Of a stretch of DNA of 64,000 bases, positions 3,072 through 52,205 are shown in pieces. Every line of letters starts with the position of its first letter. The stretch's first letter is position 1. The DNA lies in contig WHUX01000164.1 of NCBI GenBank assembly GCA_015179025.1, positions 57,122-121,121 on the forward strand, read 5' to 3'. The position numbers and the translations under genes were made by a program. The DNA is from Terfezia claveryi (lineage: Eukaryota > Ascomycota > Pezizomycetes > Pezizales > Pezizaceae). The notes below the pieces were generated by a model. The model saw nothing but the letters and a program-made list of their open reading frames with translations. It was not told where the DNA came from and ran no database searches.

Positions 3072-3115
3072 GGTCCCGTTCTGCGAGGGGTAGTGCAACC
3101 AGACTAGGTCCCGTT
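3072..3115 (+). mobile_element. Ultra-short insertion (26 bp) with perfect 9-bp target duplication
   Basis: GGTCCCGTT at 3072-3080 is repeated exactly at 3107-3115. The 26 bases between begin CTGCGAGGGG and end GTGCAACCAGACTA, a variant of the unit at 6088 and 10098. A more decayed copy lies immediately upstream at about 3045-3069. Confidence 0.6.
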
Positions 3116-3170
3116 ATGGGGCCCATGAGGATCCTCGTGATCTCGTTGGCTCCCCGGCATGTCAATGGAC

Positions 3171-3844
3171 TAAGAACAATCAAGATAGGCTAAAATCAAC
3201 CCGGAAATCTAATTTTTACATTCCTAACGCGCACCCAGACTTACGCTGAACCCTCTAGAATCCGAACCTTTAATGCCTCCTACGTACACCCCTCTATTAC
3301 CGCCACCACGACTACCTCTTGAGATCTCTTACATCCCCCAGTATGACCACCCCTCGTAGCCATAGGCTGCCTATAGGTCTACTTTATAAAAATCTATTAG
3401 TATAGACTATTGCTGCTCACGATACATGAAATTACATCACAGGGCGCAGAAAGCTTTCGACTAAGCCTATATTCATTCTAAGAGCAATTGTGATATGGTT
3501 GCAGAGGTATTTGAGGCTTATAGGTTGCAAATTGAGATATAAAGAGGCCGGAATTCGATACCTCGAGAGCAAATTTATAACGGTTTTGGAAAGCAATGAT
3601 ATTCTTCAGAGTTTGCAGTGACGTAATCTCACAAATAGTAAGCAGTATACTGATGGATTTCATAGAGTAGACCCATAGGGAGCTAGGGGTGGTCATAGTG
3701 GGCAGTGTAAGAGGGGTGGTCATCATACAGAGGTGGCCGAAGTAGGTATTGAGGGTTCGAGTTCAAGAGGGTTCAGCTCAGCGTAAGTCTGGGTGTTTGA
3801 TTCAGATTATCTGATGTGTTTTTAGCCTACCTTCATTGTTCTTA
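3171..3844. mobile_element. Fold-back MITE, 674 bp
   Basis: TAAGAACAATCAAGATAGGC at the left end is matched in inverted form at 3820-3844. The arms continue inward (about 3185-3375 and 3690-3832) with shared words such as CACCCAGACTTACGCTGA and AACCCTC. No coding potential. A clear target duplication is not visible. Confidence 0.6.
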
Positions 3845-3960
3845 CTATATTGACATTGTGCATATAGCCGGGGAACCTATATTGATCGTCACGTAGGCAA
3901 CCGGGTTAGTGATATTTCACACGGGTTTATATCAGCGACCGTAGTTTTTCTTCTCAGCGC

Positions 3961-5140
3961 ATTTTTTTTATTTTTTATTAAATACTCATTACTCCGAATC
4001 GGTCCCAGTAAGGGGACAATGAGGAGCCACCCGGAAACCCGGGGAAAAGGCGGTTACCGGCGCGCAAAATAACTCTCAAGTGCCAAAAAGGCAAAAGCAA
4101 AAAGGCAAGAATCAGTCGTAGGGTCTGATCGAGAGTATTAAACAGGCTACCAAAGAGGCTTGACTGAACCTCGACCCAAAGCACTGACATAAAAAACCTC
4201 TCGCGAGTAGAAAGATACCAGAAAGATATTCAGAACATCTCGAGGTAAGAGGGAAAATTCATATGCCGGAGGCGCTGGTAGGAAAGTTAAACAAATCAAA
4301 GTGGGAAACCCACCATGAATTCCTCAGACAATTGACCAAAAATACTCGCAGGTGAAAAATCTCATTCAAATTCTCGAATTCGTTCCCTTGGAAATGGTCA
4401 ACTCTTCCAATCGTATTCCGTGGTAGGGAAGAAACTCTTCACCGCCCTTGCTGGATGTCGATTTCGAGCGATGACGCCATCTTTCCACCCCTTCTTCCTT
4501 CTTGTAGCAGCCACCGAACACCTACAATTTGTTAGAATGAATGCAGTACATTCCGTTCATTCCGCCTATGCCTTGCTATACCATATGCATATAGCATGCT
4601 TCCTGCTTAGCCAGCGGCTTACACTCATATGGCGTGCTTCATACCTTGCTCGCACTCATATCGTGGCATCGCCTAGCTATACGGCTTGCAACGGACATGT
4701 GCTTCTCCTTCTCTTTCTCCTTTAGATGTACGCTCATAGATGTATATATATCTCGTTCATATTCCTACTTGTTTGAGATAACTAAGATATCACTTCACAC
4801 AATACAATACATGCACTCACTGTGTATACGAACATCTTCTTCTCTTCATATTCCTCTCTCTAGTGACCAACTTGCTCTATTCGCACATTCCTTCATTGGA
4901 CAGTTGGATCTCTCCGCTTGCCTGTTGCTATTCCTATTCCTATAACAATTTGGCCCTCTTGTTGTCCTCTTCGATCCAGCGGCGCATTATACCGGGCTTG
5001 TACTTAGTTGGTGCAGCTTGCAGGGACTACTTCTCGTGCTCGCATCGATGTCGGATGAGCTTTCGGGGGTGCCGCCGCCGCAGTTTCTTGTGGCTTGGGA
5101 GGGCTGGTTCCGGGGTGTAGGTACTGCTGCTCCTTTGCCT
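3961..5140 (-). mobile_element. ORF1-only LINE remnant (LINE-B family), interrupted by a solo LTR
   Basis: On the minus strand this begins with an ORF1-type segment (4948-5140 and 4260-4529: 'PTKY' type words, a Pro/Ala-rich stretch). It continues straight into the LINE-B 3' tail, which runs through 'GGGTTTCCGGGTGGCTCCTC' to '...GGACCGATTCGGAGTAATGAG' and an A-rich end. No reverse transcriptase lies between. The same ORF1-to-tail junction ('CCTACCAGCGC') occurs near 32398 (plus), and its start near 24150 (minus). Confidence 0.6.
4530..4947 (+). mobile_element. Solo LTR (Copia type, TGTTA...TAACA)
   Basis: 418 bp beginning TGTTAGAATG and ending CCTATAACA, with a TATATATAT box. It splits a LINE-B ORF1 repeat: the uninterrupted sequence CACAATTTTGGCCCTCTT is visible at 24354-24371, and a further intact copy lies near 32150 on the other strand. 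No internal region remains, as expected from recombination between two LTRs. A partial LTR of the same family lies at 26843-27035. Confidence 0.7.
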
Positions 5141-5156
5141 TTCTGGATCTTCAACT

Positions 5157-5460
5157 CGCCCATATATGCAATATCAGAGAGATTGTGCCAACCAGACTAT
5201 ATCCACCCCACCCGTGTTCACCTGAATTTGCCCCTTCCTTAGTTGGATGTCCAACCCGCCATATTTGCAATATTCGCCTCTTCCCCAGCTGGATATACAG
5301 CCTGCGATATACAGTACCCCGGCGAAAGTAGTTGCGACCCCCCTACAAAAATAAATACTTTCGCCAAGGTATTATATGCAAAATTCACCCCGTCCCTAGC
5401 TACCGCCATATATACAATATCAGCCCGTTCCCGAGCTTGACGTAGCCATATTGCCACTTT
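5157..5460. repeat. Decayed 45-bp tandem repeats (fold-back element family)
   Basis: Degenerate units of the 'CCAGCTGGATAT..GCCTGC..ATA' repeat that forms the arms of the fold-back structure at 39216-44800. An ultra-short insertion core (TGTGCCAACCAGACTA) sits at about 5184-5199 without a convincing target duplication. Confidence 0.45.
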
Positions 5461-5974
5461 ATTTTTTCCTTATCCACCAAACCCCGTGTATACCCTGAAC
5501 TCACCAATACGTAAGTCTTGTTTTCCTTATTCTACGTTTTGATTTCCTTCCTTCACAGTGTAGTCAGCTACACGCCTATTTCCAAATGGACATACGCGGG
5601 GAGGGAAAAAAATATTTACGTGTACGTACACTTGTAGAAAGAATAGGAGTAAATACCAAAGTGAGGGGGGAATGGGGCAGCGCGAAACAGCCGTACCTCC
5701 ATGTATATATCCTCCGGTTTTGCTACTTATGACTATACCCACTGCTATTCCCGATGAGATCCAGACTGCGTTTCTCACATGGGTGCAGTCCAACCAGAAT
5801 CGCAACCTTTGCGAATGATCGGCATGGCGAGTACCTCGTCTTTTTATCCTTCCCGAATAGAAAATTATGTTCAACTCTCCAGGGTAAGGGGGCATAACAA
5901 CGGTGGTCAAATTGGAATAATTTATCAGTCATAAATCTTTAATAAGTACAAGCTCAATGATCAGGCTGGTTTTG

Positions 5975-6231
5975 TTTAATTTTTCTTTTTCTTGCATTAG
6001 ATATTTGGTCGTTTATTTTATTTTTTATTATTTGCCTGTCACACTCTATGATTTTTCCGTGGGTATTATTGGTTTGTTTGGCGGTGTTCTCTACGAGAGG
6101 CTTGTGCCAACCAGACTATGGCGGTTTGATAATTTCGCTTCTCTTTTGGAATTGTTTATTTGTTGGTGCGGTCATTGTTTTGTATGCAACGTCTATTGTA
6201 CATTTCGTGAGACTGGTGCATGCTTAACATC
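5975..6231 (+). repeat. Decayed outer-arm segment of the fold-back element family
   Basis: AT-rich sequence matching 44470-44700 and, inverted, 39330-39545: 'ATTATTGGTTTGTTT', 'TTGTTTATTTGTTGGTGC', 'CATTGTTTTGTATGCAAC', 'CATTTCGTGAGACTG'. It is a third, isolated copy of the outer arm and carries the insertion at 6088-6118. Confidence 0.6.
6079..6127 (+). mobile_element. Ultra-short insertion (31 bp) with 9-bp target duplication
   Basis: TGGCGGTGT at 6079-6087 and TGGCGGTTT at 6119-6127 (8 of 9 identical) flank 31 bases that begin TCTCTACGAGAGG, a small hairpin, and end CTTGTGCCAACCAGACTA. The two homologous arm copies (about 39440-39470 and 44530-44560) have a single target-like word and no insert. 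Confidence 0.7.
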
Positions 6232-6724
6232 CCCGCAGGTTATCTTTCTTCAAGACTTGGAATTCAAATCAGGTGCAAATGGGTCAATCTTCTAACCAAG
6301 GTCATCCCATGTTGAAAAATATTGTCCAATAGAAATTGCCTTTCAATAGAAATTGCCTTATTAACATAAAGTAAAGTCTTTGAGAAGGTCATATGGGTTG
6401 GAAATGCGGAGGGTAGGTATAGAGTTCAGCAATAGTTCAAAATGGGTGAAAGTAAGTGTAGAGTGAACAGGGAAGGTGTAGAGCTAAGTTACAGGTTGGA
6501 AATGAAAACAGGAGGTAACGCAATGTAAAAGAGAAAACTCAACACATTATGATAAAAGGAAGACTGGAAGAGGGGAAATAAAATCAAATAAACCAAAAAC
6601 AACGTAGAATTAAGAGAGAAGGTAAAAGGTCAAGGAGCAATTCCAAGTTTGAGTAAGAGGTCAAACGAGTTTCTGAGGCAAAGGAAGCTAGGTGAGGGAA
6701 GGGGAGCCAGAAAGATTATGGGAG
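6232..6724. other. No gene; purine-rich AT-leaning spacer
   Basis: G/A-rich low-complexity sequence ('GGGAAGG', 'GAGAAAAC') with no reading frame of note. It grades into the minisatellite at 6725. Confidence 0.4.
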
Positions 6725-7810
6725 AGGGAACCTGAGCCGGGAGAGCCAACCTGAGCGAACCTGAGCCGTAAGCGCCTCTCTAAGCGAATCTGGACCGAGA
6801 GAGCATGTGTGAGCGCACATGTGAGCCCAACAGAGCGAACCAGAGCCAACAGAGCCTATGTGAGCGCCTATAGGTAACTAACCAGAGCGAACTTGGACCC
6901 GGAGAGCGGATGTGAGCTCCTGTGTGAGCCAACCTGAGGGAAACTGAATTGTAACCGCCAACATGAACCGGAAGTGACTATATAAGTGTCAATGTGGGCC
7001 TATGTGACCGTGAGCATCTCTGTGAGCCACCCTGAGCCAACCTGAGCTTGGGGAGCCTATGTGATTACCTATATACTGTGCGCGAACCTAAGCAGACCTG
7101 GACCTGGAACCTTAGCTGGAGAGCCCTAAGTGGGCGCATATGTGAGTCGAGCTGAGCGAAGATGAAGAGGAGAGTCCATATAAGCGTACCTATGTGAGCC
7201 ACCCTGAGCCAACCTGAGCTGTGAGCGCGTATGTGAGCGTACCTGGATTGGGAGAGTCGTTGTGAGCGCCTGTACCTATGAGCCGACGTGATCGAACCTA
7301 GACCAGGAGAGCCATTGTGGGTGCCGCAGTGCGCGAGCCTGCATCGGGAGAGTCGTTGTGAGCGCCTAGATGAGCCAACCTGAGTGAACCTGAACCGGGA
7401 GAGCCTATGTGAGCGCCTACGTGAGCCACCCTGAGCCACCCTGAGCTGTGGGCGCCTATGTGAGTGAACCTAGACCGGGAGCCTATGTGAGAGCCTATGT
7501 GAGCGAAGGTGAAGCGAACCTCAGCCGTGAGCGCCGATATGAGCGAACTTGAACTGGGAGTGCCTAGCGAACCTGTGCGCGAACCTGGATTGGGAGAGTC
7601 GTTGTGAGCGCCTGTACCTATGAGCCAACGTGAGCGAACCTAGACCAGGAGAGCCAATGTGAGTGCCTATGTGCGCGAGCCTGGATCGGGAGAGTCGCTG
7701 TGAGCGCCTATCTGAGCCAACCTGAGGGAACCGGCGCCGTGAGCGCCTCTGTGAACGAAGCTGAGTCGTGAGCACCTATTTGAGCGAACCTGAGCCGTGA
7801 GAACCAATTC
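6725..7810. repeat. GAGCC/GAGCG minisatellite, about 1.1 kb
   Basis: Highly irregular tandem array built from the words 'GAGCGCCTATGTGAGC', 'CAACCTGAGC' and 'GAACCTGGACCGGGAGAG'. Unit spacing varies (roughly 20-60 bp). A higher-order duplication is visible around 7240-7330 and 7580-7680. The minus-strand Ser/Arg-rich reading frames here are by-products of the repeat. Confidence 0.75.
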
Positions 7811-7845
7811 TCAACGAGACGCTTGCGCCAACCAGACTAAGCTAA
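7811..7845 (+). mobile_element. Ultra-short insertion copy at minisatellite edge
   Basis: A full 31-bp form (starts TCTCAACGAGACG, ends GCGCCAACCAGACTA) lies exactly where the minisatellite stops. The flanking 9-mers do not match, so a target duplication is not shown here. Confidence 0.4.
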
Positions 7846-7988
7846 GAGAGCCCAATAACCTGAGCCAGCGAGGCAGAATAGATATCCCACGACCGAGCTA
7901 CCTAGCTATGGAGCGGGACCAGCTTTCCAAAGACCTTCGTACGCGAGGTGATGGAGATATCTTTACGGGAACGAATCAATTTGTTTTA

Positions 7989-8644
7989 TTTAAGCTTGTA
8001 CATTTTTTTTTTTTTTTTAAATACTTAGTACTCCTATGCAGCCCGTTAGGGGGGGGGAGCCACACGGAAACCCGGTGGATTCAAGGGGAAGGCAAGTTAA
8101 TCTGCCGACCCCACGCGAAATGTAACTAAATACAAGAACTGGGAAGAGGTCCCATGCTGTCATTAACGGACTGGCCGATGATCCGTAGACCTGACTGAAC
8201 CTCACCCCGAGAATGACGAACTGAACTAAATAAAAGAAAAATTAATATATGAACTGGAACTGAAATGATGACTGAACTGGGGCAAAGGGGACTCGTAAAT
8301 ATTCGTATCACTTTCTCCCTCCTGACGGTCGTCCTTCCAAGCGAAGGGAATTCGTAAATGAAAATGTACTGATGAATGCGGAACTGAAATTGAACTATAT
8401 GAGCTCCTTATATATAATCCCGAAAAAGGCCTCCGTGGCCTCGTAGCTCTCTTCTCCTTCCTTTCTCCAATCCTCCTTATCGAGCTCTACCCAGCTGCGT
8501 CTTGTCCCTAGTAGGGCTCTCCGGTGTTGGTCGAAACGTGGGCAGGTGAAGACGATGTGTTCTCCTGTCTGATTGGGATATCCGCACGCGCACTCTGCTG
8601 AGGCTGCTTTGCCGATGTGATAGAGCCAGCTTTAAGCTTGTACA
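7989..8644 (-). mobile_element. 5'-truncated LINE-B insertion with 14-bp target duplication
   Basis: TTTAAGCTTGTACA occurs at 7989-8002 and again at 8631-8644. Between them (8003-8630, minus) is the 3' part of a LINE: the C-terminal coding end (8395-8630), a ~390-bp untranslated region, the tail 'GGGCTGCATAGGAGTACTAAG', and a poly(A) read as T on the plus strand. This is the classic outcome of target-primed reverse transcription with 5' truncation. Confidence 0.85.
8395..8630 (-). pseudogene. LINE-B ORF2 C-terminal fragment
   Basis: Uninterrupted in-frame remnant of ~78 residues with no start. It contains a Cys/His cluster of the type 'CACGYPNQTGEHIVFTC', typical of the C-terminus of RNase H-bearing LINE polyproteins, then a Trp/Glu-rich end ('EEDWRKEGEE'-like) and a stop at 8395-8397. 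A diverged homologue is read at 15620-15805. Confidence 0.7.
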
Positions 8645-8751
8645 GAAAAGCCAAACCCGGCAGAAGAAACCAAGTGCGCAAAATAAGACAAGTTAATCCA
8701 ACCATGCTGTGATTCGGAGAAGAGGAGCAAAAAAAAAAAAAAAAAAAATAA
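8645..8751. other. A-rich spacer between LINE insertion and gene
   Basis: Contains a ~20-nt A run at 8729-8748, just 3' of the stop of the minus-strand gene at 8752. Confidence 0.4.
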
Positions 8752-9579
8752 CTAAGCATCCATCATATAGAATGGAATAAAAGTTCCGATATACCTATCC
8801 CCACGGTCTGCGTGGGCTGAGTTGCGAGGTAGAATGAGTGCAGATCTGAATTCCCGGGAGAGCTCATGATCTATATGTACCACCGCTGCCCACTCACTCT
8901 CGATGGGCAGGTTTTCCACTCTCACAAGATGAGGTGAAGCCTCACACCTCACAAGATAAGGTGAAGCCTCACACTCTAAGTCAAACATATCACATGCACA
9001 GGCCGTGTCTATGCTCGGTACCTCCCACCACGTTATTGTTGACATGTAGCTGAGCCGCTCGAGATATCCTGGGAGAGATACTGAGATTCTCCAGTCAGGT
9101 TGGAGATATTTACCGATGAGTTCCTCAGGTTCGGAGGAGTAACATGGTCCACAAAGATAGAAATCTTTAATGCGGTGGGAGATCGTCTGCCCAGCCATTA
9201 CCCATCGCTCGCTGCCAATTAGCTCCGGTGATATTCTTGGCTCATTTCTACCAAGGAGAGCGTATTTGAATCTCTGTCTTTTCATCGTTTCTCTGGGTGT
9301 CTCTAGTCGTCTTGAAACCCGGTGGCAATCCTGGCACAAGGGTATGTTGCACAGAAAGCACGGTTTCCGGCCCCAGATACAACTGGGGAATGCATTGGGT
9401 AGCCTGCCGACAGTGGTGGTGAATGTCAAGTGAAGGGTGTGGCAAGTTCGTGCCAGATTGACTATATCTTGCCGATGACTGCATGAGAGCAGAGATTCTA
9501 GCACTGGGTAGGCGTTGAAGATACGCAGCAGCAACTCTGCGCTACGAGTGGTGGGCTTTTGGGATTCATGTTGGTTCAT
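8752..9579 (-). CDS. F-box-like, Cys-rich protein (paralogue 2)
   Basis: Intact 275-residue frame. An F-box-like helix set ('ELLLRIFNAYPVLESLL', 'DIVNLARTCHTLH') occupies residues ~13-55. The Cys cluster is C74-x2-C77-x4-C82-x2-C85, with a later pair C143-x2-C146. The C-terminal signature 'VRVENLPIESEWA' ends in 'FYMMDA'. A 27-bp tandem duplication (8921-8947 and 8948-8974) repeats nine residues just before that signature and is absent from the paralogues. The start is the ATG at 9579; relative to paralogue 3 one base is lost upstream, which removes the earlier ATG that gene uses. The upstream region, with a TATA box, is conserved with the gene at 25840. Likely a real host gene; the ubiquitin-ligase adaptor role is inferred from the F-box alone. 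Confidence 0.75.
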   Translation of the reverse strand: MNQHESQKPTTRSAELLLRIFNAYPVLESLLSCSHRQDIVNLARTCHTLHLTFTTTVGRLPNAFPSCIWGRKPCFLCNIPLCQDCHRVSRRLETPRETMKRQRFKYALLGRNEPRISPELIGSERWVMAGQTISHRIKDFYLCGPCYSSEPEELIGKYLQPDWRISVSLPGYLERLSYMSTITWWEVPSIDTACACDMFDLECEASPYLVRCEASPHLVRVENLPIESEWAAVVHIDHELSREFRSALILPRNSAHADRGDRYIGTFIPFYMMDA

Positions 9580-9775
9580 TGTAAGGGAATGGCCTGGGAC
9601 TCGAGGAATTTGTGAGTTTTGTTGATATAATGAGATGTATGTTCGGTTGGGTTTTTCCTCGTGGATGTTCTAGTTTTGTTGTAGAGTGGGATATTCAGGT
9701 GTTTGTAGTTGATGCTCAGTGACTCTAAGGATGTTTTATACTCAGTCAGAGGGGCCAAGCGCTTCTACACCTTAA
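9580..9775 (-). promoter_or_regulatory. Putative core promoter of F-box-like paralogue 2
   Basis: Minus strand carries TATAAAA (9734-9740) about 155 bases before the start. 'GACTGAGTATAAAA' and downstream 'TTCTAGTTTTG' words are conserved at 26554-26720 ahead of paralogue 3, while the flanking DNA has diverged. Confidence 0.45.
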
Positions 9776-9794
9776 AACTGCCTTTAGTCTCAAG

Positions 9795-9945
9795 ACAAGA
9801 CTGCTAGGTAGTCTGGTTGGCACCTAGGTTGTTCTGCCTTGAAGTTACTAATCTGCCTTTCTCTCACCATACCTAATCGAGGTGACACGGCTCACCTATA
9901 TAGTCTGGTTGGCACAAGCCTACGAACGGCAACCAGACTAGGCTA
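9795..9945. repeat. Cluster of ultra-short insertion cores in both orientations
   Basis: TAGTCTGGTTGGCACC at ~9809, TAGTCTGGTTGGCACAAGCC at 9901, and CAACCAGACTA at 9930-9940. The last two form a 40-bp unit with 11-bp inverted ends (TAGTCTGGTTG...CAACCAGACTA). No clear target duplication. Confidence 0.45.
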
Positions 9946-10088
9946 GAACTGCATGCTGACTGCAGTGAATGGAATGGGTGGGCGCTTAGCATTATTGAAT
10001 AAGGGCAGCCAAAGACACACGTAGGGGAGGCCTTGGTGTGTGACCGTGGTGATCGAACCACTTACTCTTTCTCTCTTCCAGGAACGTC

Positions 10089-10137
10089 CTGCATCTTCCT
10101 CTACGAGGGGCTTGTGCCAACCAGACTACTGCATCTT
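10089..10137 (+). mobile_element. Ultra-short insertion (31 bp) with perfect 9-bp target duplication
   Basis: CTGCATCTT at 10089-10097 is repeated exactly at 10129-10137. The 31 bases between (10098-10128) begin CCTCTACGAGGGG and end CTTGTGCCAACCAGACTA. This is the cleanest example. Further decayed cores follow at ~10223 and ~10375. Confidence 0.75.
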
Positions 10138-10749
10138 AACCGTGCCGAATTCAGTATGTTCCTCTTTGGAGTCTCTGTATCCGTTAAAAACTATAGTAGC
10201 GCTCGTTGGGGTCCGGCCATAGAACCAGACTACATCCATAGGTAGTCTCGTTCTAGCCTCGTAGCAACCAGCCTGTTGTATATGGGGGGAGTTACGAGGT
10301 CACGAACCACAAAAATATTAACCTGGGTGCGAGGCTAGGTAGTCTCGTTCCTCCATAGGTCACCGACCCACAGCCTAATCTGGTTGGCAGAACTCCTTCT
10401 ATCTATTGATATCACTGACCGTTACACCGAACCACCGATCATGAATAGCACAGCCTTGTCACATTTGCCCCACTTTACCCAGCAATAAACTCCAGACAAC
10501 CAGCACGATCTAACAGCCACCAATGCCGCTGTCCTCACATAAAGACCTTACCGTGTAAAACCCTGGCCACCCTATTCCCCAGCGGACACTGCAGCCCTAG
10601 ACTACCAGAAGACCTAGGACCTCTAAAAGGACCAAAAAGGTGATTTCGTTGACTTCGAGGGTAGTCAGTAAGACTATGGTTGACAAATAAATGTGCGTGG
10701 GAATAAGGTTGTTGTTGGTGAACAAACTGAATCCCCCCTCAGTAGGTTG
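10138..10749. other. No gene; scattered insertion-core relics
   Basis: Contains 'GGTAGTCTCGTTC' twice (~10231, ~10338) and degenerate ultra-short insertion cores. No credible coding sequence. Confidence 0.4.
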
Positions 10750-15170: not shown

Positions 15171-15179
15171 GCCGAAAAG

Positions 15180-16015: not shown

Positions 16016-17740
16016 AAAAGTGTTAGACATGTTCTCCCACCGTAGTCTTTTACTATCTTCCGTTCCTTCCTTTATTTCTTCATGGTGTTGCCCCATGGCA
16101 CCTTGTTTTTCTTTAATGTCCCATGCTGCCTTCGCTGGTGGCATATCCCCTCTTCATCTTGCGATATAGCCTATCATCACGAATCTAATGCTTAACTTTT
16201 CAAGCCTTAGCTTGCGTTTTCCTTCGTTGCTCATATCCGGAGGCCTCCTCGTTGTAATAAGATATCCGATATTACCTCTGCATTGGTTGTTGACATTTGC
16301 GGAACCTGATATTTCTGGAGCTGAAAGGTTATAGTTTCAAAATCGCCATCAGGGGATTCCTCAAACTCTCCGTCTCTCCGAATCTTCAGGTACATCCATG
16401 CCTTGTCTCCTTCTAGACAATCCGTCATATCCCCGCACAGTAAACGTGTTTGATATCGGAGTCCAATATCTTATCCACATTACCTCACCAAAGAGCTTTA
16501 GACCTTGCCTAGGGCCTCTGATTCAGCCATCTTCCTTCGCTTCTTCACAACTGACCGCCAACTTGCCATCCGTAGCTTGTTCAATGACCTGGATTTCTTT
16601 GTCTGCCAATGCTCCTACCCTCCCTCGCTCCTGCTTGGTGATCTAGATATACGCTTCAAGAACTTGCGATTATTTTTTCCCCAGACAATTGAAGTTAAAG
16701 CTCAGGTAAATTACACCTCAAATCTTAGATTATTTTCTGAAGTTCCGCTGCAGCAACACCCTTATCAAGGGTAGAGTTGCTGTGCCCGTTGACATCGTCA
16801 TTGCTAGGGTATAAGGGTGTGTGATGTAAAGACGTGAAAGATGGCAGGTATGGAGGGGTTGATTGGTTGGAGGGTTCTATAACCAGGTTAGCATATGAGA
16901 AATGGTCAATTGGTGAAGGGTTTAATCGGTAAAGAGGTTGATCAGTGGAGAAGACTAGGGCCTCCACAGTCGGGCGGTCGTGTAACCAAATAATGGCTCT
17001 AGAAAAGTCCGTTGGGCCATAGTCTGGTTGTTCGGCCATTGCTGAATGTAGACACCGTGGAGAAGGTAGAGTATGAATTAAGGATGTAGCCAACGAAACG
17101 CCTTATATTATCTCAGCCCACAACAATATATATACCGAAGGCCCCCTACGACATCCAACAGCAGAGTTAATCCCACGGTGAAAGGCTTCTCTCTCCAGGG
17201 ACATTCGAGCTCCTTGTCCCAAAAGGCAACCCTCTCTTCCCTGTGCTTCCGGCCGATCTATATTGTTGCCCCACTACGGGGCATACCTCCTCCTGCAACA
17301 GTCCATGAACCTTTCAAGGTCCTACAGTAGCCTACTAGAACACAGTCACATCCCGAAATCTGCCTCTGCTCGCATGTGGACGAGATTAACTCCTTATAAT
17401 CACTACAGGCGATAGATACTCGGTTCTACAACATGGTGATTAAAAGCTCTGTAGCACTGCCCCAGGATGTTAAGATGGGTAGGCGACCTCCTCCATCCCA
17501 AACGGTTCCATATGACACTGAATGGCAGGATATGCGGTCATGTAACGGTGGCAGATGGAGAGGGGATAGCTCTGAGGCCACCACATGAAATTTAAGGTCA
17601 TTTTGAGGATCAATTAGCACACTAGGCCAATGTTGATTTTAACCTAGGGCCCGCTCTACTTTGCCTTAAATCAAATCAAACCACAATCAAATTCACCACA
17701 ACTATAGCTGCAATCACAGACCCATAACAGTGGGTTTAGC
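16016..17740. other. No confident gene
   Basis: The only long frame is 16725-17093 on the minus strand (122 residues, ATG start, Pro/His/Ser-rich, 'SPIDHFSYANLVIEPSNQS'). It has no family signature and I cannot tell whether it is real. The rest shows no recognisable structure. Confidence 0.3.
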
Positions 17741-28580: not shown

Positions 28581-30744
28581 CTACAACCAAACTAGAAACT
28601 CAAGCCGCACTTTCCACAAATCCAGCTCGTTCACTTCCTGCTCAGCTAAGTCCACCATCTGTCTCCATGGGTCACTGGTCTTCAAGACCTCCCACAACCT
28701 CACCAGCCTCTCCTGTTCCACTGAATTCACCGTTTCTATACGATTATAACTGAACCAGCGCAGGGGAAAGGGGAAGATAAGCGTGTTTATCAACATTACG
28801 AACGCAAGGTAGTCGTGGACTGGACGGGGCTTGTAGAGGAGAGTTTCGAATGGTGAATTCTCATCCTTAACATACTCATTATTATGGTCGAGATCCATAT
28901 CGCTAGGTGAGTAAACATTCCGCGCTCGCTGAAGCAGTTCCGACGGACAAGAAATATAGCCTCCCTCATAAACGCAGTCAATCCCAATCTTCGTCGCTCT
29001 ATCAAAATCAATCAATAAACCCCTATATCTCCATTTCCTGTCAATATCCCCGATATCCTCAACATCCCAATCTTGATAAACAACCACATTATCCGTCCTC
29101 ACATCCCTATGCACCACTCCTTTCTCATGGACCCACCCCAGCGCTTGGAGTACATCCTCCAAACAAACTCTAAACTCAGCAGGGTCCTTAAAAAGCTCCA
29201 GATGAATACACTGTCCTGCAGGTGTAATTCCAAACTCGGGTAACTCGCCGACCACTTCATGATTGTGGATATAGACAAGCTCTGGGACAGACCTGGGTTT
29301 GCCTGGAGTCTGAAGCAGTTGGAGGATATTGATTTCAGAGCTGATTGCCTCGGTCCAGGCGGGTTTGGATGCGGCTTTAACAATCCGGTTTTTTCCTTCC
29401 GGAGAACGGTAAACTGCAACGACAGCATTGGACTGTCGCTGAAGGACATGGACTAGTTCCCCGGCGCCAGGGTGGAATGGAAGCATTGGTGGGTTTGCAG
29501 TTTCCGCTGTAAGTTCATTATACAGGTGTCTGAGAGCAATTGCGAGTGTGGTTTTCTTGTACTGCACTAGCCTGCCTGTATATGAGCTAGGTTGTTGACT
29601 ACGTCTGCGATGCTGCCCATACGTGGAGCCAATGGTGTATTTGACTATAATCGCGTCTTTAAGGTCCGTCAACATCGCGAGGAATATACACCTCCCAGGT
29701 TGGCAGTCTACCAGTTCCATGAGGTAGTCCCAGATTTGGCCAAGGTTGTTAGCGGTACCGAGCTTACCCCCAGGCCCAGAAGCGGTGCCTTTGAGATCGA
29801 GCACGGCAGCGACATTAAAGCGGTCAGCAGAATTCGTATTGCGTTGGATAGTGATGTCTGGAGCGAGGTCATTTAAATAACGACGTTCATGTGTGTCAAG
29901 GACATGGGTTTTGCCGAAGCCAAGGGAGGTTTGCGGGGAGAAGTATGTGTTTAATAAGCGGACGACGGAGGCGTAGTCGATGTTCTGCTCTTCCTCACAA
30001 GTGAATCTTGTGAGTTGCGGGACTAAGTTTGCGTTGGGGTCGATACCCCGCCTCGCAGTTGATGGCGGGTCTTGGTTGATGGCTGAGGTGGTCTGGGAAA
30101 TCGCCTGCTGCCATGCCTTTGCGCGCGTGACTGACCCCGCATAGCGTGGATGTGGGTTGGGTAGGGCGGGTGGGGTGGAGACTTTATTCAGGGCTGCGGA
30201 CAGGTTAACAATGGCCAGAGTTTCAGAATTTTTCTCAACAAGTGCTGCGAGCTGCTGGTTTTGTGCTGCGAGCTGCTGGTTTTGCGCTGCGAGCTGCTGG
30301 TCTCGTGCTGCGAGCTGCTGGTTTTGCGCTGCGAGCTGCTGGTCTCGTGCTGCGAGCTGCTGGTTTTGCGCTGCGAGCTGCTGGTCTCGTGCTGCGAGCT
30401 GCTGGTCTCGTGCTGCGAGCTGCTGGTCTCGTGCTGCGAGCTGCTGGTCTCGTATTGCCAGCTGCGTAGCGAATAAGTTTGCGACCTACAGACGATTATT
30501 AATAACTAGGAAACGATTCTCCGGAGGAAAGGAAGGACAAGACATCACGGATGAGTTTTCGCAAGACTGAATCCCACAGTTCATCGACCTGTATTTGTTT
30601 CAAGATTTGACTTGTCTCTGTACAGGTGGAAAAATTTAGTACTCCGTAGGGACCCTTAACAAGGAGAGAAGGGCAGGACTTGCGTGTAATAAGGTACTGC
30701 TCCCTCTCAGCAGTCAGGAGTGCCTGGTCGGGTAGAGGATGCAT
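28581..30744 (-). CDS. FunK1-like protein kinase, copy 1 (two exons)
   Basis: Exon 1 is 30744-30544 (67 codons, ATG, 'MHPLPDQALLTAERE') and exon 2 is 30485-28581, joined by a 58-nt phase-0 intron (30543-30486) ending in TAG. The product is 701 residues: an N-terminal domain, heptad repeats QQLAARD/QQLAAQN predicted to form a coiled coil, a linker with 'TSLGFGKTHVLD', then the kinase. Kinase motifs are an ATP-lobe Lys in 'RIVKAAS', 'HRDVRTDNVVV' as catalytic loop, and 'LLIDFDRAT', where the usual DFG is DFD, a known FunK1 trait. The family is fungal-specific and its substrates are unknown. The donor here is GTCTTG; copy 2 has GTTTGT, four bases longer, so splicing may be weaker here. It is an inverted duplicate of 48507-50683. 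Confidence 0.8.
30245..30465 (-). repeat. 21-bp coding minisatellite in kinase copy 1
   Basis: About nine tandem 21-bp units (CTGCTGGTCTCGTGCTGCGAG and variants), each encoding one heptad QQLAARD or QQLAAQN. There is one unit fewer than in copy 2 (48790-49035). Unit length keeps the frame. Confidence 0.85.
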
Positions 30745-41603: not shown

Positions 41604-41604
41604 T

Positions 41605-41915: not shown

Positions 41916-42068
41916 ATGCTACTGTATGTTTCCTGTCGCTGTATGTTTCCTGTCTCTATGCGCTGTATGTTTCCTATCTCTATGCGCCTGTCTCTACAAT
42001 TGAATTGGCAAGTAGAAAAAGTAACGAGTTTTAGCAGAATATAGCACTATAGTGTTTGAAACTGACAG

Positions 42069-44035: not shown

Positions 44036-44079
44036 GAAGTCTTCTTTCTCCCATTCCAGGTAGGGGGAGGGAGGAGCCA

Positions 44080-45211: not shown

Positions 45212-45262
45212 GAAACCCCCCTCCAGTCCCGAAGGGGTTTCTTATAACGCGACTCCACTGTA
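45196..45262. mobile_element. Short pogo-like terminal sequence
   Basis: 'TATCGCGATATAAGAAACCC' faces 'GGGTTTCTTATAACGCGACT' and ends CCACTGTA at a TA. It is a near-minimal MITE or a transposon right end. Confidence 0.6.
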
Positions 45263-45309
45263 CACACATCTCTTATTATATTCCACTGCATCTCGGTTGC
45301 AATTATTTC

Positions 45310-46340
45310 CATAGGGAGCTACTGCAATTAATGCTGCCTATTCTTGTGGCACGAGCTGCCATGATACGCTCTGGTGATCTTTCGTAGAGCTAAGTATTCC
45401 AAACGTTCCATTCCTGATATGCGACATGCGGATGTCTGAATTTGCCCGTGTGTTTGAATCAGAACTCTGTGCCCCATGAAAACATAGGATGTATGCATCC
45501 TGTGTATACGGAATATGGATTTCAATGAGCTGGGGACATGCCCCCATTGCCCTTACCCAATCTCAGAAGCACACAATATTTCTTTCCTGCCTTTTCTGTC
45601 TGATGTAGTATGTGTTTCTTGAAATTGAATTTATGGTCAACTGTGATTCCGAGGGTCGTGGTGGAGTGTGATTTATGCTTATCTCCGATGTCTAAGTGGG
45701 AGTCCTTGCCGGTGTACCATTCTAGTTCGTCGATGTTGGGGGTGGATATGAGAGCAACCCGGCGAACAATCTATTGATGTTCGGCAGCTAAATGCCGTGA
45801 CGTGATGATGAGAGGGTTAAAATCAGCTGCATAGCTGAAGAGTGAGAGTATTCTTAGAATTAGATCCTCCTTCTGGTATCTCCTTGACCCCGCTTGGAAC
45901 TCTAGAGGAACTCCATTGAGAGAACAACTTTGAGTTTTAGCTCAATCCCGGTTTTCGACGGTGTGGAAGTCCCATTGACCGATATTGAAGCCCTGCTCTG
46001 TAGTATAGTGCTCAACGCATATGCCACTCCAAGTTGTTGATATCAGATCACTCAGGGTGTTTGTTTTGCTGTGCGCTGTGGCTTTACCATACATCACCGG
46101 GATATGCATCAGCCCCCACGCGAACCCTGTCGGTCCATTCTTGGCGGCATAGCGGACTGCAAAATGAACGGAAACATTGCCAGCAAAATATATATGCCTC
46201 GTAAAGATATAGAGATTCATTGACATGTGGTGGGAATACGAAATGGACGGGTTTGGATGGGTTAATAGATCGATTTTTGGGTGGCATCTAATATTCCGAG
46301 GCAAAATAGAGACAAGCAACTGACCTGCGGTACTGACCAA
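45310..46340 (-). pseudogene. LINE reverse transcriptase remnant
   Basis: Minus strand, with stops: 'FSYAADFN' where 'YADD' is expected, 'LGITVDHKFNFKKHILHQ' with 'AGKKYCVLLRLG' (thumb region), then 'LEYLALRKITRAYHGS'-like sequence downstream. The upstream part (45942-46340) is open for ~130 residues, and its 'EQGFNIGQWDFH' recurs at 31280-31320. Start and end are missing. It partly forms the left arm of the next inverted repeat. Confidence 0.5.
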
Positions 46341-46680
46341 GTCTTGGGAATATATATGAATTGGGGTTTGAATGGCATAATCTAGAGTGTATAGATGCGG
46401 TTTAAGTTGCTTAAAAGTAATAAAGCGATTAGTCTAACTTTGGAAGGCGAGCAGGAGTTTGTGCACTTTTCCGAGATCTATTTATATAAAAATCTGAAGC
46501 AGCCTGAGCCGTACTAAACTCAGCTGGACTAATTATGCCTTGTCTGTGTGAGCCCAAGTCCGTCTCGGTCCGCCTGAGTTTGTCTAACCCACCTGAGTCT
46601 GCTGGACTAAATCTGAAGCTGCCTGAACTCATCTGTATAAATTATATAGATGCTCAGCATTCCTGACCTTCTCTGATAAA
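46085..46680. repeat. Left arm of ~1.8 kb inverted repeat
   Basis: About 590 bp inverted match to 47315-47890, sharing words such as 'GGAATATATATGAATTGGGG', 'CGATTAGTCTAACTTTGGAA' and 'GCCTGAGCCGTACTAAACTC'. The arm contains part of the LINE remnant. Confidence 0.75.
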
Positions 46681-47314
46681 CTCTAGGCTAGTCTAGACAC
46701 ACCATAGCAATATTGAACTTCAATAAGCTAATATATATTTGCTTGAAGCTACTTGAGACGTCCCAAACTAGTATAAACTCTTGTGAATTACTATTAGGTT
46801 ACTTCAAGTCAGTTGAGCTCGCTGGAGCATACCAATACATATCAGAACTACTCTAATCTCACCAGCATTTATTTTTGGCCATCATATAGTAACTCGGGGT
46901 TAGCTTCCACAGGTCTAGATTGCTTTAGTATACTTGAGAGGCAGTACCTCCATAAGTAATTTTAAACTTCAATTAGGATAAGTCATCCAAGTCAGCTTAG
47001 GCTAGCTTAACCTAGTATATATGCCTGCATCTATCTCAATATACTGAACATTATCTTCTTTACCACTCTGTACAATCACGGACTCTCAAATGAATTGTCC
47101 AAACTCAGGTGGATTCAGGTAAGTCTGAGTTGGCCTATCTAAGCCTGAATTGAATATGCATAGGGCTATATAGGGTAGTATAGGGCTAGGCTAGTAAAGA
47201 GAAGCTCAAGTGAAGGTCCAGTGGTATCACACAGTTTAGAAGTAGTACCCATTACATTATAGAAGTTCAATATTGTTCTGGTGTGCCTAGTCTTCTAGCC
47301 CACAATTTGTCAGA
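46681..47314. other. Loop of the inverted repeat
   Basis: AT-rich sequence rich in 'CTTGAGC', 'TTGAACTTCAATA' and 'AACTC' words, like degenerate copies of arm repeats. No gene. Confidence 0.4.
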
Positions 47315-47890
47315 CAAGGTCAGGATCTATATAATTTATGCAGACGAGTTTAGGCAGCTTCAGATTTAGTCCAGCAGACTCAGGCAGGCCAGGCAAACTC
47401 AGGTGGACCAAGATGGACTTGAGCTCACACAGGCAAGGCATAATTAGTCCAGCTGAGTTTAGTACGGCTTAGGCTGCTTCAGATTTTTATATAAACAGAT
47501 CTCGGAAAAGTGCACAAACTCCTGCTCACCTTCCAAAGTTAGACTAATCGCTTTATTACTTTTAAGCAACTTAAACTACATCTATACACTCTAGATTATG
47601 ACATTCAAACCCCAATTCATATATATTCCCTACCGCAGGTCAGTTGCTTGTCCCTATTTTGCCTCGGAATATTAAATGCCACCCAAAAATCCATCTATTA
47701 ACCCATCCAAACCCGTCCATTTCGCATTCCCACCACATGTCAATGAATCTCTATATCTTTACGAGGCATATATATTTTGCTGGCAATGGTTCCGTTCATT
47801 TTGCAGTCCGCTATGCCGCCAAGAATGGACCGACAGGGGTTCGCATGGGGGCTGATGCATATCCCGGTGATGATGCATTACCCGGTGATG
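47315..47890. repeat. Right arm of ~1.8 kb inverted repeat
   Basis: Inverted copy of 46085-46680. On the plus strand it reads through 'PILPRNIKCHPKIHLLTHP' and 'MNLYIFTRHIYFAGN', parallel to the minus-strand frame at 45942-46340. Confidence 0.75.
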
Positions 47891-48211
47891 GATGGTAGTT
47901 GTCATCAATGCTTATGTCGCTTTTGTATCCGTCGATGCCTGGTGACGGCAGCCGGTAACTAATGGATTTCGCCGATACATTATCCTTTCCATTGCCCATG
48001 CCTGCATTGCCTGACATGTCGTCAAGGGTTGTTACTTTGCGGCTCCGCAGTGTTGGTCATCGACGGGCGTCGCAAAACTCAGAAGTAAGCTGCGTGCCAA
48101 CGGCACGAGACTAGTGCCAACCAGACCAGTCAGTTGCTATGTTCTGCCTAGACCCATATCTGCATAGTTCATGCCAAATTAGTATTAGCAGCGCAACTAA
48201 CATGTAACAAG
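47891..48211. other. LINE-like scrap and insertion cores
   Basis: 'TTACTTTGCGGCTCCGCAGTG' matches 25335-25355 in part. A degenerate ultra-short insertion core (AGTGCCAACCAGACC) is at ~48113. No gene. Confidence 0.35.
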
Positions 48212-48245
48212 GGGTCTTATGTACTAGTCTGGTTGTGGGTCTTAC
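48212..48245 (-). mobile_element. Minimal insertion core (16 bp) between 9-bp repeats
   Basis: GGGTCTTAT (48212-48220) and GGGTCTTAC (48237-48245) flank GTACTAGTCTGGTTGT, a minus-oriented core of the ultra-short unit. Confidence 0.5.
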
Positions 48246-48506
48246 AGCTGCACTATGTACCCTAGTCTCGTGCCCAGACCCTCTGTTAAGAGGATGTACC
48301 CCGGCTTGCATATTTCGGCTTGCAGTCTCATGCCAAGACCCTTCTCGCAGTTGGCATGACAATCTTGAATGTGCGCTTAGCAGCCAAGTGCTTAGTCATA
48401 ATCTCATCGCGTGGCATTGGATTAGTCTGTATTGCATATTTTCAGCTTCTGCACCCACGGCATCTTGCTGTCGCTCTCAAGTTTTCGCAAATCCACCGCG
48501 TCTGCC

Positions 48507-50683
48507 ATGCATCCTCTACCCGACCAGGCACTCCTGACTGCTGAGAGGGAGCAGTACTTTATTACACGCAAGTCCTGCCCTTCTCTCCTTGTTAAGGGTC
48601 CCTACGGAGTACTTAATTTTTCCACCTGTACAGAGACAAGTCAAATCTTGAAACAAATACAGGTCGATGAACTGTGGGATTCAGTCTTGCGAAAACTCAT
48701 CCGTGATGTTTGTCTTGTCCTTCCTTTCCTCCGGAGAATCGTTTCCTAGTTATTAATAATCGTCTGTAGGTCGCAAACTTATTCGCTACGCAGCTGGCAA
48801 TACGAGACCAGCAGCTCGCAGCACGAGACCAGCAGCTCGCAGCGCAAAACCAGCAGCTCGCAGCACGAGACCAGCAGCTCGCAGCACGAGACCAGCAGCT
48901 CGCAGCGCAAAACCAGCAGCTCGCAGCACGAGACCAGCAGCTCGCAGCGCAAAACCAGCAGCTCGCAGCACGAGACCAGCAGCTCGCAGCGCAAAACCAG
49001 CAGCTCGCAGCACAAAACCAGCAGCTCGCAGCACTTGTTGAGAAAAATTCTGAAACTCTGGCCATTGTTAACCTGTCCGCAGCCCTGAATAAAGTCTCCA
49101 CCCCACCCGCCCTACCCAACCCACATCCACGCTATGCGGGGTCAGTCACGCGCGCAAAGGCATGGCAGCAGGCGATTTCCCAGACCACCTCAGCCATCAA
49201 CCAAGACCCGCCATCAACTGCGAGGCGGGGTATCGACCCCAACGCAAACTTAGTCCCGCAACTCACAAGATTCACTTGTGAGGAAGAGCAGAACATCGAC
49301 TACGCCTCCGTCGTCCGCTTATTAAACACATACTTCTCCCCGCAAACCTCCCTTGGCTTCGGCAAAACCCATGTCCTTGACACACATGAACGTCGTTATT
49401 TAAATGACCTCGCTCCAGACATCACTATCCAACGCAATACGAATTCTGCTGACCGCTTTAATGTCGCTGCCGTGCTCGATCTCAAAGGCACCGCTTCTGG
49501 GCCTGGGGGTAAGCTCGGTACCGCTAACAACCTTGGCCAAATCTGGGACTACCTCATGGAACTGGTAGACTGCCAACCTGGGAGGTGTATATTCCTCGCG
49601 ATGTTGACGGACCTTAAAGACGCGATTATAGTCAAATACACCATTGGCTCCACGTATGGGCAGCATCGCAGACGTAGTCAACAACCTAGCTCATATACAG
49701 GCAGGTTAGTGCAGTACAAGAAAACCACACTCGCAATTGCTCTCAGACACCTGTATAATGAACTTACAGCGGAAACTGCAAACCCACCAATGCTTCCATT
49801 CCACCCTGGCGCCGGGGAACTAGTCCATGTCCTTCAGCGACAGTCCAATGCTGTCGTTGCAGTTTACTGTTCTCCGGAAGGAAAAAACCGGATTGTTAAA
49901 GCCGCATCCAAACCCGTCTGGACCGAGGCAATCAGCTCTGAAATCAATATCCTCCAACTGCTTCAGACTCCAGGCAAACCCAGGTCTGTCCCAGAGCTTG
50001 TCTATATCCACAATCATGAAGTGGTCGGCGAGTTACCCGAGTTTGGAATTACACCTGCAGGACAGTGTATTCATTTGGAGCTTTTTAAGGACCCTGTGGA
50101 GTTTAAGGTTTGTTTGGAAGATGTTCTCCAAGCGCTGGTGTGGGTCCATGAGAAAGGGGTGGTGCATAGGGATGTGAGGACGGATAATGTGGTTGTTTAT
50201 CAAGATTGGGATGCTGAGGATATCGGGGAGATTGACAGGAAATGGAGATATAGGGGCTTATTGATTGATTTTGATAGAGCGACGAAGATTGGGATTGACT
50301 GCGTTTATGAGGGAGGCTATATTTCTTGTCCGTCGGAACTGCTTCAGCGAGCGCGGAATGTTTACTCACCTAGCGATATGGATCTCGACAATAATGAGGA
50401 TGAGAATTCACCATTCGAAACTCTCCTCTACAAGCCCCGTCCAGTCCACGACTACCTTGCATTCGTAATGTTGATAAATACACTTATCTTCCCCTTTCCC
50501 CTGCGCTGGTTCAGTTATAATCGTATTGAACGGGTGAATTCAGCGGAACAGGAGAGGCTGGTGAGGTTATGGGAGGTATTGAAGACCAGTGACCCATGGA
50601 GACAAATGGTGCACTTAGCGGAGCAGGAAGTAAACGAGCTGGATATGTGGAGAGTGCAGCTTGAGTTTCTAGTTTGGTTGTAG
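48507..50683 (+). CDS. FunK1-like protein kinase, copy 2 (two exons)
   Basis: Exon 1 is 48507-48707 (67 codons), the intron 48708-48769 (62 nt, GTTTGT...TGTAG, phase 0), exon 2 48770-50683. The product is 704 residues. Exon 1 joins smoothly to 'VANLFATQLAIRD' and then ten QQLAARD/QQLAAQN heptads (coiled coil). The kinase part has 'RIVKAASK', 'HRDVRTDNVVV' and 'LLIDFDRAT' (DFD in place of DFG, as in FunK1 kinases). It is near-identical to copy 1 (28581-30744), which lies inverted 20 kb away. Differences are one heptad more, a net four-residue loss in the acidic 'DLDNNEDENS' stretch, a few substitutions and the donor site. Both frames are open, so either could be functional. No neighbouring gene suggests a pathway. 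Confidence 0.85.
48790..49035 (+). repeat. 21-bp coding minisatellite in kinase copy 2
   Basis: Ten full 21-bp units plus partial ends alternate between CAGCAGCTCGCAGCACGAGAC-type and GCGCAAAAC-type forms. Same unit as 30245-30465. Confidence 0.85.
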
Positions 50684-50762
50684 ATGTGGGAGTTGGGAGT
50701 AGGCTTGTCTGCTAAGTTGCGTGTCTGCTTATATAAAATGTAGTGTTTGTATATCATAGAAA

Positions 50763-50969
50763 CTGCAGATAAATCAGTCAAGTTACAAGTTAGAGTGGAG
50801 TCTCAATATAAGAAACCTGTGATGCAAGAAACTTCATGATGTAAAGTAACTAATCCCTGGTGCCGCAAGAATAACGTAATCTGTTCCAGAAAGCATTCGC
50901 ATGGCCGATACCACCATGACATCAAGCGTTACCATGTGTACTACACCTCCAAATGATGTCTAGGGAATG
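50763..50969. mobile_element. 3' flank of kinase copy 2 with pogo-like scrap
   Basis: The inverted duplication with 28493-30790 ends near 50762. 'GAGTGGAGTCTCAATATAAG' at 50795 is a pogo-like terminal word with no partner. Confidence 0.4.
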
Positions 50970-51002
50970 TTTCTCTCTAGTCTGGTTGGCTAGTTTCTCT
51001 CT
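50970..51002 (-). mobile_element. Minimal insertion core (15 bp) between perfect 9-bp repeats
   Basis: TTTCTCTCT at 50970-50978 and 50994-51002 flank AGTCTGGTTGGCTAG, the inverted form of the ultra-short unit's end. Confidence 0.55.
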
Positions 51003-51859
51003 ACCAGACGGTCAGGTATGCAAGTGCTGCGCAAGCGTTATCTCGCCCAGGATGTCTATATTAATGAGGTGCGGGCAGTCGTGAATCCAGTAAAGGAATG
51101 GAATGAATAGAAGCGGGAAGCTATCAGCAATAAGATGAATAAAAGTAGGAAATACATAAGCTATGTGTACATACGATTAACTGAAAGAACACATATACAC
51201 TCATGAGATCCTATGGAACGTCATATGAAGCACATATAATGTACACACATGTACGGAAGCTTCACACATGTGAAGTGCATATGTGGGTCTGTCGGGTATT
51301 GGTGGAATGATATGCATATACCGTATTAATTCGCAACTAAGAATGCTGTCATTCACAAACGGGCGGTCGGAGGGACCTTAAGCTTACTGACTTATATGCG
51401 ATACTAGATACTTTCTTATAAAAGAAACTCCAAAAAAGACGACAGTGGCATAATTGATATCTTTTTACACGATCTCCTCTCCAAGCATAATTGTAGCATA
51501 TTGCATGGCCTCTTCTTCAGTAATGTAATCTCCCTGCTCAATGTCACTTTCATCCGCTTCCTCCTCATCAAATCGCTGTCCGCCTGCTAGAATTCTGCAG
51601 TTTAAATACTGAGGTTGCGCGAGGTTTTTGACTGGTGGTTTGCGCACTGGGTCCAGGACGGAATTGACATATTACTGAGTCCAGCACGAGGTGCCTGCGG
51701 AATTGACATTGTAACAAGTGATGGTGATGAGTGAAAGAAACCGGCAGCGCCAGTCAACGTTGACATTCCTATACTACAGTCCTATAAGAAAATTTTGCTG
51801 TAAGACTCTTAAACATCATTCGGATAAAAATTAGGCTGTTTTACCCCTGTCTTATACAC
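51003..51859. other. No confident gene
   Basis: An acidic 60-residue minus-strand frame (51465-51647, 'EEEADESDIEQGDYITEEEA') may be a broken transposon protein end. The rest is AT-rich and unassigned. Confidence 0.3.
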
Positions 51860-51993
51860 TACAGTATTCTCTCGATACATATAAGAATATTTGATATAAG
51901 AATATATTTGAGATAAGAATATACCCCCCCCCCACCCCCATACAAAATAAGGATATATATGATAGATGAATATTCTTATTTTTTCGCGGTTGT

Positions 51994-52091
51994 TTGCTAA
52001 GGTATTCCGGGTGGCTCTTCATGGTCCCCTTACTGGGACCGAATAAGAGTAACAAGTATTTTTTAAAGAAAAAAAAATTGCTAAGGTATTC
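51994..52091 (+). mobile_element. LINE-B 3' tail insertion (70 bp) with perfect 14-bp target duplication
   Basis: TTGCTAAGGTATTC at 51994-52007 and 52078-52091 flank 'CGGGTGGCTCTTC...TTACTGGGACCGAATAAGAG' and an A tail. The empty counterpart at ~27130-27145 reads TACTAAGTTATTCC. Confidence 0.9.
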
Positions 52092-52156
52092 TTATAGCAA
52101 GAGTACCTGATTGGGTAATGTATAACAGCCTAGCCAGAATAGGAAGGGTATCGAGA

Positions 52157-52205
52157 AGAAATACCTCTCTGCGAGAGGCTTGTGCCAACCAGACTAAGAA
52201 AACCC
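52157..52205 (+). mobile_element. Ultra-short insertion (31 bp) inside the pogo element
   Basis: 52166-52196 begins TCTCTGCGAGAGG and ends CTTGTGCCAACCAGACTA. The flanking 9-mers AGAAATACC and AGAAAACCC agree at 7 positions. The related element at ~27222-27235 reads AAGAAATCCCGC with no insert. Confidence 0.6.

Follow-up and report, generated by a model that had tools for sequence, protein, structure and literature searches.

What are the ultra-short inserts of about 31 bp that lie between 9-bp direct repeats in the genome of the truffle Terfezia claveryi, and which process left them there? The window analysed here is the whole 64,000-nt stretch of contig WHUX01000164.1 (positions 57,122 to 121,121 of the forward strand). 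Four such units, all on its plus strand, had been reported in a preliminary description, and re-reading of the sequence found all of them as written: (i) a 26-bp unit CTGCGAGGGGTAGTGCAACCAGACTA (3081–3106) between perfect copies of GGTCCCGTT (whole site 3072–3115), (ii) a 31-bp unit CCTCTACGAGGGGCTTGTGCCAACCAGACTA (10098–10128) between perfect copies of CTGCATCTT (10089–10137), (iii) a 31-bp unit TCTCTACGAGAGGCTTGTGCCAACCAGACTA (6088–6118), also found in identical form elsewhere, whose flanking 9-mers agree at 8 of 9 positions (6079–6127), and (iv) a 31-bp unit TCTCTGCGAGAGGCTTGTGCCAACCAGACTA (52166–52196) with flanking 9-mers that agree at 7 of 9 positions (52157–52205). The proposed picture of an ultra-short insert with one common end and a hairpin at the opposite end, present in many unrelated contexts, is supported by our analysis, which confirmed that the phenomenon is real and more extensive than first stated. 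The origins considered at that stage (internal deletion, end-only insertion or a new kind of insertion substrate) lacked the reading that we rank first here, tentatively, namely that the units are scars of transposon excision.

The 15-mer GTGCCAACCAGACTA occurs in 2,885 exact copies genome-wide (72.56 Mb, 794 contigs), while its reversed control pattern is absent; individual positions were taken from the first 100 of these places. The window holds 14 motif matches with at most three mismatches against 1.73 expected, a number that none of 100 shuffles reached. We combined the window with 20 stretches of contig C1 (198,575 bases) into an end sample of 262,575 bases, in which the C1 stretches were selected for exact motif content and therefore yield no motif density. 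Further loci (L057–L138) were selected by a 30-mer that defines class A, by a related 25-mer or by a two-armed pattern, so that the proportions of classes among them are biased.

We compared the 9-mers flanking each insert with control 9-mers from 40–300 bp downstream, counting right ends within two edits of CCAACCAGACTA and allowing inserts of 12–120 bp. In the end sample, a perfect 9-mer repeat spans the insert at 25 of 112 right ends (0.2 expected) and a repeat with one mismatch at 12 of 112 (1.71 expected), and the excess of equal flanks that the preliminary description had anticipated is thus present. ACTA followed by a perfect 9-mer repeat at 10–60 bp was matched 151 times in 326,603 bases, a count that includes palindromes on both strands, some unrelated repeats and loci chosen by motif; ten rearranged tails gave 2–24 matches each. 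With all loci pooled, 100 perfect 9-mer events end in CAGACTA or GAGACTA. The length of the duplication is fixed at 9, since the tenth base agrees in 30 of 100 events on one side and in 29 of 100 on the other, which is the level of chance; a fixed-length target duplication is expected of a derivative of a cut-and-paste transposon. The target has no strong motif, and its weak bias is roughly symmetrical (C or G at position 1 in 64 and at position 9 in 60 of 100 events), a symmetry that we counted for the scar reading.

Insert lengths of the 100 perfect events fall into clusters of 10–11, 15 and 26–34 bp within an overall range of about 10–34 bp. The mode is 31 bp (22 events), followed by 15 bp (11), 28 and 29 bp (7 each), 32 and 11 bp (6 each) and 10 bp (5), with fewer events at the remaining lengths. 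The 15-bp and 10–11-bp units are additions to the 26- and 31-bp forms first described, and the minus strand of the window provides an example of the former, TAGCCAACCAGACTA (50978–50992) between perfect copies of GAGAGAAAC (50969–51001), and a probable 10-bp unit AACCAGACTA (17020–17029), the flanking 9-mers of which agree at 8 of 9 positions (17011–17038). An end remnant flanked by both target copies is expected of an excision footprint, and this is the arrangement that the units display. The exact 30-mer of class A is present at 89 places; the 46 that we read correspond to 44 distinct contexts. Perfect 9-mers lie within three bases of the 30-mer in 22 of the 44, and in 17 of these 22 exactly one extra base completes a unit of exactly 31 bp. 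In 5 of the 44 contexts the repeat is shortened or mismatched (first 4–8 bp matching, within three bases of the 30-mer), against 0.63 expected, and filler is present in some units (L072, L087, L088). Both the shortened repeats and the filler resemble products of end joining and were counted for scars.

Read on one strand, a full unit consists of a first hairpin (pyrimidine-rich arm, loop of 3–5 bases, purine-rich arm), a second hairpin and a terminal AGACTA, for example TCTC-TAC-GAGA, GG(C)TTG-TGC-CAACC and AGACTA, and in many full units the first hairpin is flush with the target copy. By reading, variants of the first hairpin (CCTC-GAGG, CCTCC-GGAGG, CTCT-AGAG) and of the second (GGCTA-TAGCC, GGCGG-CCGCC, GGTT-AACC, GTCT-AGAC) retain their pairing, the energy fold drawing the second hairpin otherwise in many units. 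Units of 14–15 bp start at the loop of the second hairpin or one base earlier, and units of 10–11 bp start after this loop. When arms were swapped between units, at least four pairs of the first hairpin were formed in 20 of 48 native units compared to 13% of swapped ones, with none of 1000 permutations reaching the native mean; for the second hairpin, the values were 14 of 16 core types compared to 40% (1 of 1000 permutations). These figures are not strict probabilities, as the units are related, 28 of the 48 have no four-pair first stem, and the 48 were hand-picked from 74 after nested, filler-bearing, two-armed or shorter sequences had been dropped. Two successive hairpins with compensating changes, the hallmark of double-hairpin elements, are thus found by the arm-swap test, and the better pairing within units was likewise counted for scars. 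The pattern GGNGG...CCNCC has four genome matches with N complementary in all of them, and a second end type, GATCGAGACTA preceded by CCCTCTACGAGGGTCT, has an identical layout. In one subfamily, the first loop of 53 copies reads TGT (29), ACA (12), AAA (6), TAT (4), TAC (1) or AAT (1); TGT and ACA are reverse complements of each other, and the reverse complements of AAA and TAT are absent from that subfamily. A diverged full-length copy without matching flanks is located on the plus strand of the window at 7808–7839, and a degenerate GTGAGC/AACCTGAGC repeat array (6719–7806) terminates directly at this copy.

Two-armed forms, with both 15-mers exact, facing each other and separated by 0–30 bases, number 46 genome-wide. 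Two facing terminal inverted repeats would be expected of a cut-and-paste derivative, but most sampled units are one-ended. They are near-palindromes, the outer arms being paired over at least 18 bases in 23 of the 46. The form at C712:239236 is an intact palindrome (24 + TAC + 24), and the one at C1:441186 consists of precisely 15 + 15 bases between perfect 9-mers. When five kinds of hairpin loop were tested, no form among the 46 had such a loop on the left and on the right side together. We fetched 28 distinct two-armed sites, and in 10 of them left and right remnants lie between perfect flush 9-mers; several of the remaining fetched sites are separate units side by side. The window contributes a 40-bp form (9901–9940, by reading), in which the left end TAGTCTGGTTGGCACAAGCC faces the right end GGCAACCAGACTA without matching flanks. 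The perfect repeats, the pairing of the arms and the lack of double loops were all counted for the scar reading.

We searched for places without the unit by removing the unit together with one target copy and matching the flanks against the rest of the genome. At L021 and L086, the alignment gaps of 40 and about 38 columns equal the length of the unit (31 and 29 bp, respectively) with 9 bp added. At L009 and L090, the aligner misplaced the gap, and reading of the sequences likewise gives a gain of the unit plus about 9 bp; for L012 and the window site at 6118 the empty-site matches are more diverged and unclear. Units were thus gained at sites once without them, which is compatible with insertion or with insertion followed by departure. 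Reading frames across the emptied sites gave no convincing gene. Serial reuse of one target (copy–unit–copy–unit–copy, at most one mismatch) was detected at five places, in L045, L066, L087 and, twice, L088, representing about three independent cases, since L087 and L088 are related and one case in L088 is a short local repeat. By reading, L026 (8324–8423) seemingly contains three units and four copies of ACAAAAATT, an arrangement missed by the scan.

The interpretation that we place first, at somewhat less than an even chance, is that the units are one-armed excision scars, in which an overhang was retained between the target copies. It starts from the observed duplications, lengths, one- and two-armed products, arm pairing and unit-less related places, and would add cut positions, overhang polarity, a repair route and a parent element. 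The parent would be a cut-and-paste DNA transposon with ends starting TAGTCTGG and 9-bp target duplications. Upon departure, its transposase would free each 3′ end at the border of the target copy and cut the opposite strand about 15 or about 28–31 bases further in, so that each donor end would be left with a long 3′ overhang. Both overhangs would share one sequence and could therefore not be joined directly. One of them would usually be trimmed to the target copy, while the other would be ligated and filled in to give target copy, one end, target copy. Folding of the overhang into one or two small hairpins would set the preferred lengths, and occasionally both overhangs would survive and anneal via self-complementary tips, generating the near-palindromic two-armed forms.

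Several results weigh against this interpretation, the main weakness of which is that the parent is missing. A two-ended element of more than 60 bp with matching flanks was not found in the 262,575 bases except for a nested composite in L026, and a fold-back element that has direct flanks and carries the motif in each arm was seen at none of 276 ends within the reach of the locus, many loci being short. Twelve of the 276 ends have an inverted copy of their interior upstream (distances of up to 9 kb were covered), with the motif at both arms only in the L038 pair, where the flanks are inverted, not direct. The possibility that the motif is part of a longer repeat, which the preliminary description had set against its own proposal, thus found no support where tested. 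In the complete list of 89 exact places, facing copies of the class-A 30-mer less than 75 kb apart occur only on C712, whose three copies are separate units, and the next closest facing copies are 75 kb apart. So a class-A parent of ordinary size whose two ends are both exact is absent from the assembly; it may have been lost, have escaped assembly or have one diverged end. The stretches and lists tested also gave no autonomous element that combines the ends of the unit with a transposase, such as the longer element with a transposase of the Mutator-like element (MULE) type that the preliminary description had suggested looking for. Furthermore, a flush repeat of at least 3 bp is lacking in 17 of the 44 class-A contexts, although 5 of these (L059, L069, L071, L072, L076) show a perfect or one-mismatch 9-mer in a looser scan. 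With 17 of 22 perfect class-A cases at exactly 31 bp, the unit is rather exact for a product of end joining. Two-armed forms are rare, accounting for 92 of the 2,885 exact ends, a count that misses some diverged arms. Finally, scars alone do not account for the use of one 9-mer by different units in series, which suggests that the machinery is drawn to units already in place.

The candidates for a parent were rejected one by one. C712:117185–120420, which by its spacing could be a 3.2-kb element, consists of two separate units, of which the first kind of flank, a perfect 9-bp repeat, is seen at one and only poorly matching flanks at the other, and the third class-A copy on C712 has its own perfect repeat. 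L038, with 834 bp between facing ends, is part of a larger inverted repeat, which extends over the flanks as well. The motif-adjacent sequence shared by L011 and L095, which resembled a long parent, is, by reading, a fold-back element about 215 bp long and flanked by TA dinucleotides (L011:2233–2448, L095:1–130), which interrupts or adjoins units. When the interiors of 307 ends were compared, the strongest sharing was between duplicated loci (L051/L136, L067/L111, L099/L101, L087/L088). The interior shared by L017 and L026 is a dispersed repeat at different distances from the end, and other sharing among the matches listed involves neighbouring units, much of it being the unit words themselves.

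The PF10551 (MULE family) profile has 21 matches in this genome. Among the eight loci read, only L034 (C773:256669–256947) contains the core motif. It is a Mutator-like gene, the open frame of which (575 aa) lies in an inverted repeat whose arms of at least 333 bp are 99% matched and contain CCAACCAGACTA; the 12-bp core lies inside the long repeat arm and not at a demonstrated element end, and we did not take L034 as the parent. L029 (C61:12358–12648) and L030 (C89:29274–29564) are two Mutator-like elements of about 2.6 kb with ends CGGACTGACTC, target duplications of 9 bp (TTGTTGAGG and TGCTACCTA) and a hairpin GGACAGGTA-loop-TACCTGTCC adjoining the end. Despite their 9-bp duplications, they were rejected as parents, since their ends differ from the unit. 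The 14-bp pattern of these ends has only 5 genome matches, 4 of them inside the two elements (reversed control, 6), and that MULE family has therefore left no comparable scar field. Of the Mutator-like origin suggested at the outset, the true 9-bp target duplications stand, whereas a Mutator-like product is only a possibility. A profile of P-type transposases (PF21787) gave no match in this genome, and the control genomes likewise gave none.

The main rival account, which we hold to be doubtful but well worth weighing, is direct insertion of a single end. Here, the mobile form would be a tiny hairpin-capped or palindromic DNA with two facing ends, about 30 or about 51–53 bp long and without cargo. 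The 3′ end at the one duplex end of the folded DNA would be joined to a target with a 9-bp stagger, and the hairpin tip would be opened away from its centre and ligated to the filled-in side, so that one arm and a few snap-back bases remain. Such a route needs no parent of greater length, in keeping with the searches made, and would account for the recurrence of exact 31- and 15-bp units at many sites and for different units in series on one target. By reading, many full units open flush with the stem, with a 5′ arm of 1–6 bases, much like the palindromic bases left by hairpin opening. Both orientations of one loop occur in one subfamily (TGT and ACA, together 41 of 53 copies), and a loop-bearing intact palindrome as well as a loopless 30-bp palindrome exist. 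However, only 1 of the 46 two-armed forms is intact, its arms of 24 paired bases each enclosing a loop of 3 bases, so that the proposed mobile form is nearly absent. Nor is any precedent known to us, or any transposase for which insertion of a single end with regular target duplications is established. The fullest version of this account is a self-spreading nuclear unit of 10–34 bases, made of one transposon end and a snap-back hairpin, which would be inserted whole with 9-bp duplications from hairpin-capped single-ended DNA, without a longer parent and preferentially beside earlier copies; we consider it a little more doubtful still. Single loops are also explained by scars through annealing of the tips in trans, and together with the footprint of an overhang between duplications this led us to rank excision scars first, though by a narrow margin.

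Insertion via RNA is improbable. In this account, reverse transcription of a double-hairpin RNA of about 31 bases ending in AGACUA would begin at the 3′ end and be followed by integration, and early stops would give the forms of 15 and 10 bases. The constant 3′ end, the variable 5′ ends and the co-varying arms of the two hairpins agree with this. Fixed 9-bp duplications, in contrast, suggest a DNA-cutting integrase or transposase over target-primed insertion, the account does not easily yield two-armed palindromes with both ends, stops would be expected after the first-read hairpin arm and not at the hairpin base, and no Rfam family was matched at E ≤ 0.5 in the part of the window searched (5900–10400). 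That the units reflect chance or an ordinary microsatellite-like repeat has a negligible probability, given 25 perfect repeats where 0.2 are expected, 2,885 copies against none of the reversed pattern, and the unit-less related places.

Among known systems, the P element is cleaved about 17 bases in from its termini, and long remnants of the ends stay behind. After excision of Tc1/mariner elements such as Sleeping Beauty, end joining leaves the overhang of one end flanked by target copies (PMC3878927). The truffle units share with such cut-and-paste footprints the overhang sequence of one end between both target copies; they differ from Tc1/mariner and the P element in a remnant of about 10–15 or 26–34 bases, a 9-bp target copy, thousands of ends and the lack of a detected parent. 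Miniature inverted-repeat transposable elements are non-coding and have target duplications and facing ends. The truffle units resemble them in the first two respects and, in the two-armed forms, in the third, whereas most sampled copies are one-ended and the two-armed forms are essentially without interior. With MULEs, the units share the 9-bp target duplications, also seen in L029 and L030, but not the end sequence of these two elements. Where donor duplications are missing, Muta1 now and then leaves behind as much as 13 bp of its end, and with 8- or 9-bp duplications about 90% of its excisions are precise (PMC5225508). Plant MULEs with 'solo TIRs' (terminal inverted repeats) are long elements plus an additional end, unlike the lone ends in the truffle. 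The nearest tiny hairpin units that we met are the GC clusters of yeast mitochondria; these clusters and the double-hairpin elements are likewise mobile and non-coding, and in yeast GC18 is the 3′ end of GC42 (PMC4478555). Unlike these mitochondrial units, of which the four commonest in yeast have AG or ACT on their flanks (2–3-bp repeats), the truffle units carry 9-bp duplications and are spread over many contigs of a genome of 72.6 Mb. A literature search that included the word TAGTCTGGTTGG returned no description of such units among the titles and excerpts retrieved, the word itself occurring in 2 papers with unrelated titles.

Beyond the units, the window contains a kinase-like gene as an inverted duplicate (28581–30485 and 48770–50683), the frame of which begins with QLAARDQ repeats that differ between the copies. 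For a kinase-like protein of the window, the best match among named sources is from Terfezia boudieri (80% identity over full length), and matches from Tirmania nivea and Terfezia claveryi reach 56–57%. A 901-aa open frame at 57288–59993 resembles, by reading, the reverse transcriptase of a long interspersed nuclear element with RNase H.

Either reading, scars or insertions, is unusual, and repeat-finding software that needs longer elements would probably overlook both alike. If the units are scars, the genome holds a dense record of the departures of a transposon with very long staggered cuts, from which hop rates, repair outcomes and target choice would be measurable. If they are insertions, DNA transposition would be possible with a single end of 10–31 bases, which the two-ended models known to us do not foresee, and the self-spreading unit, if true, would be the smallest mobile unit known to us and a one-ended form of DNA transposition.

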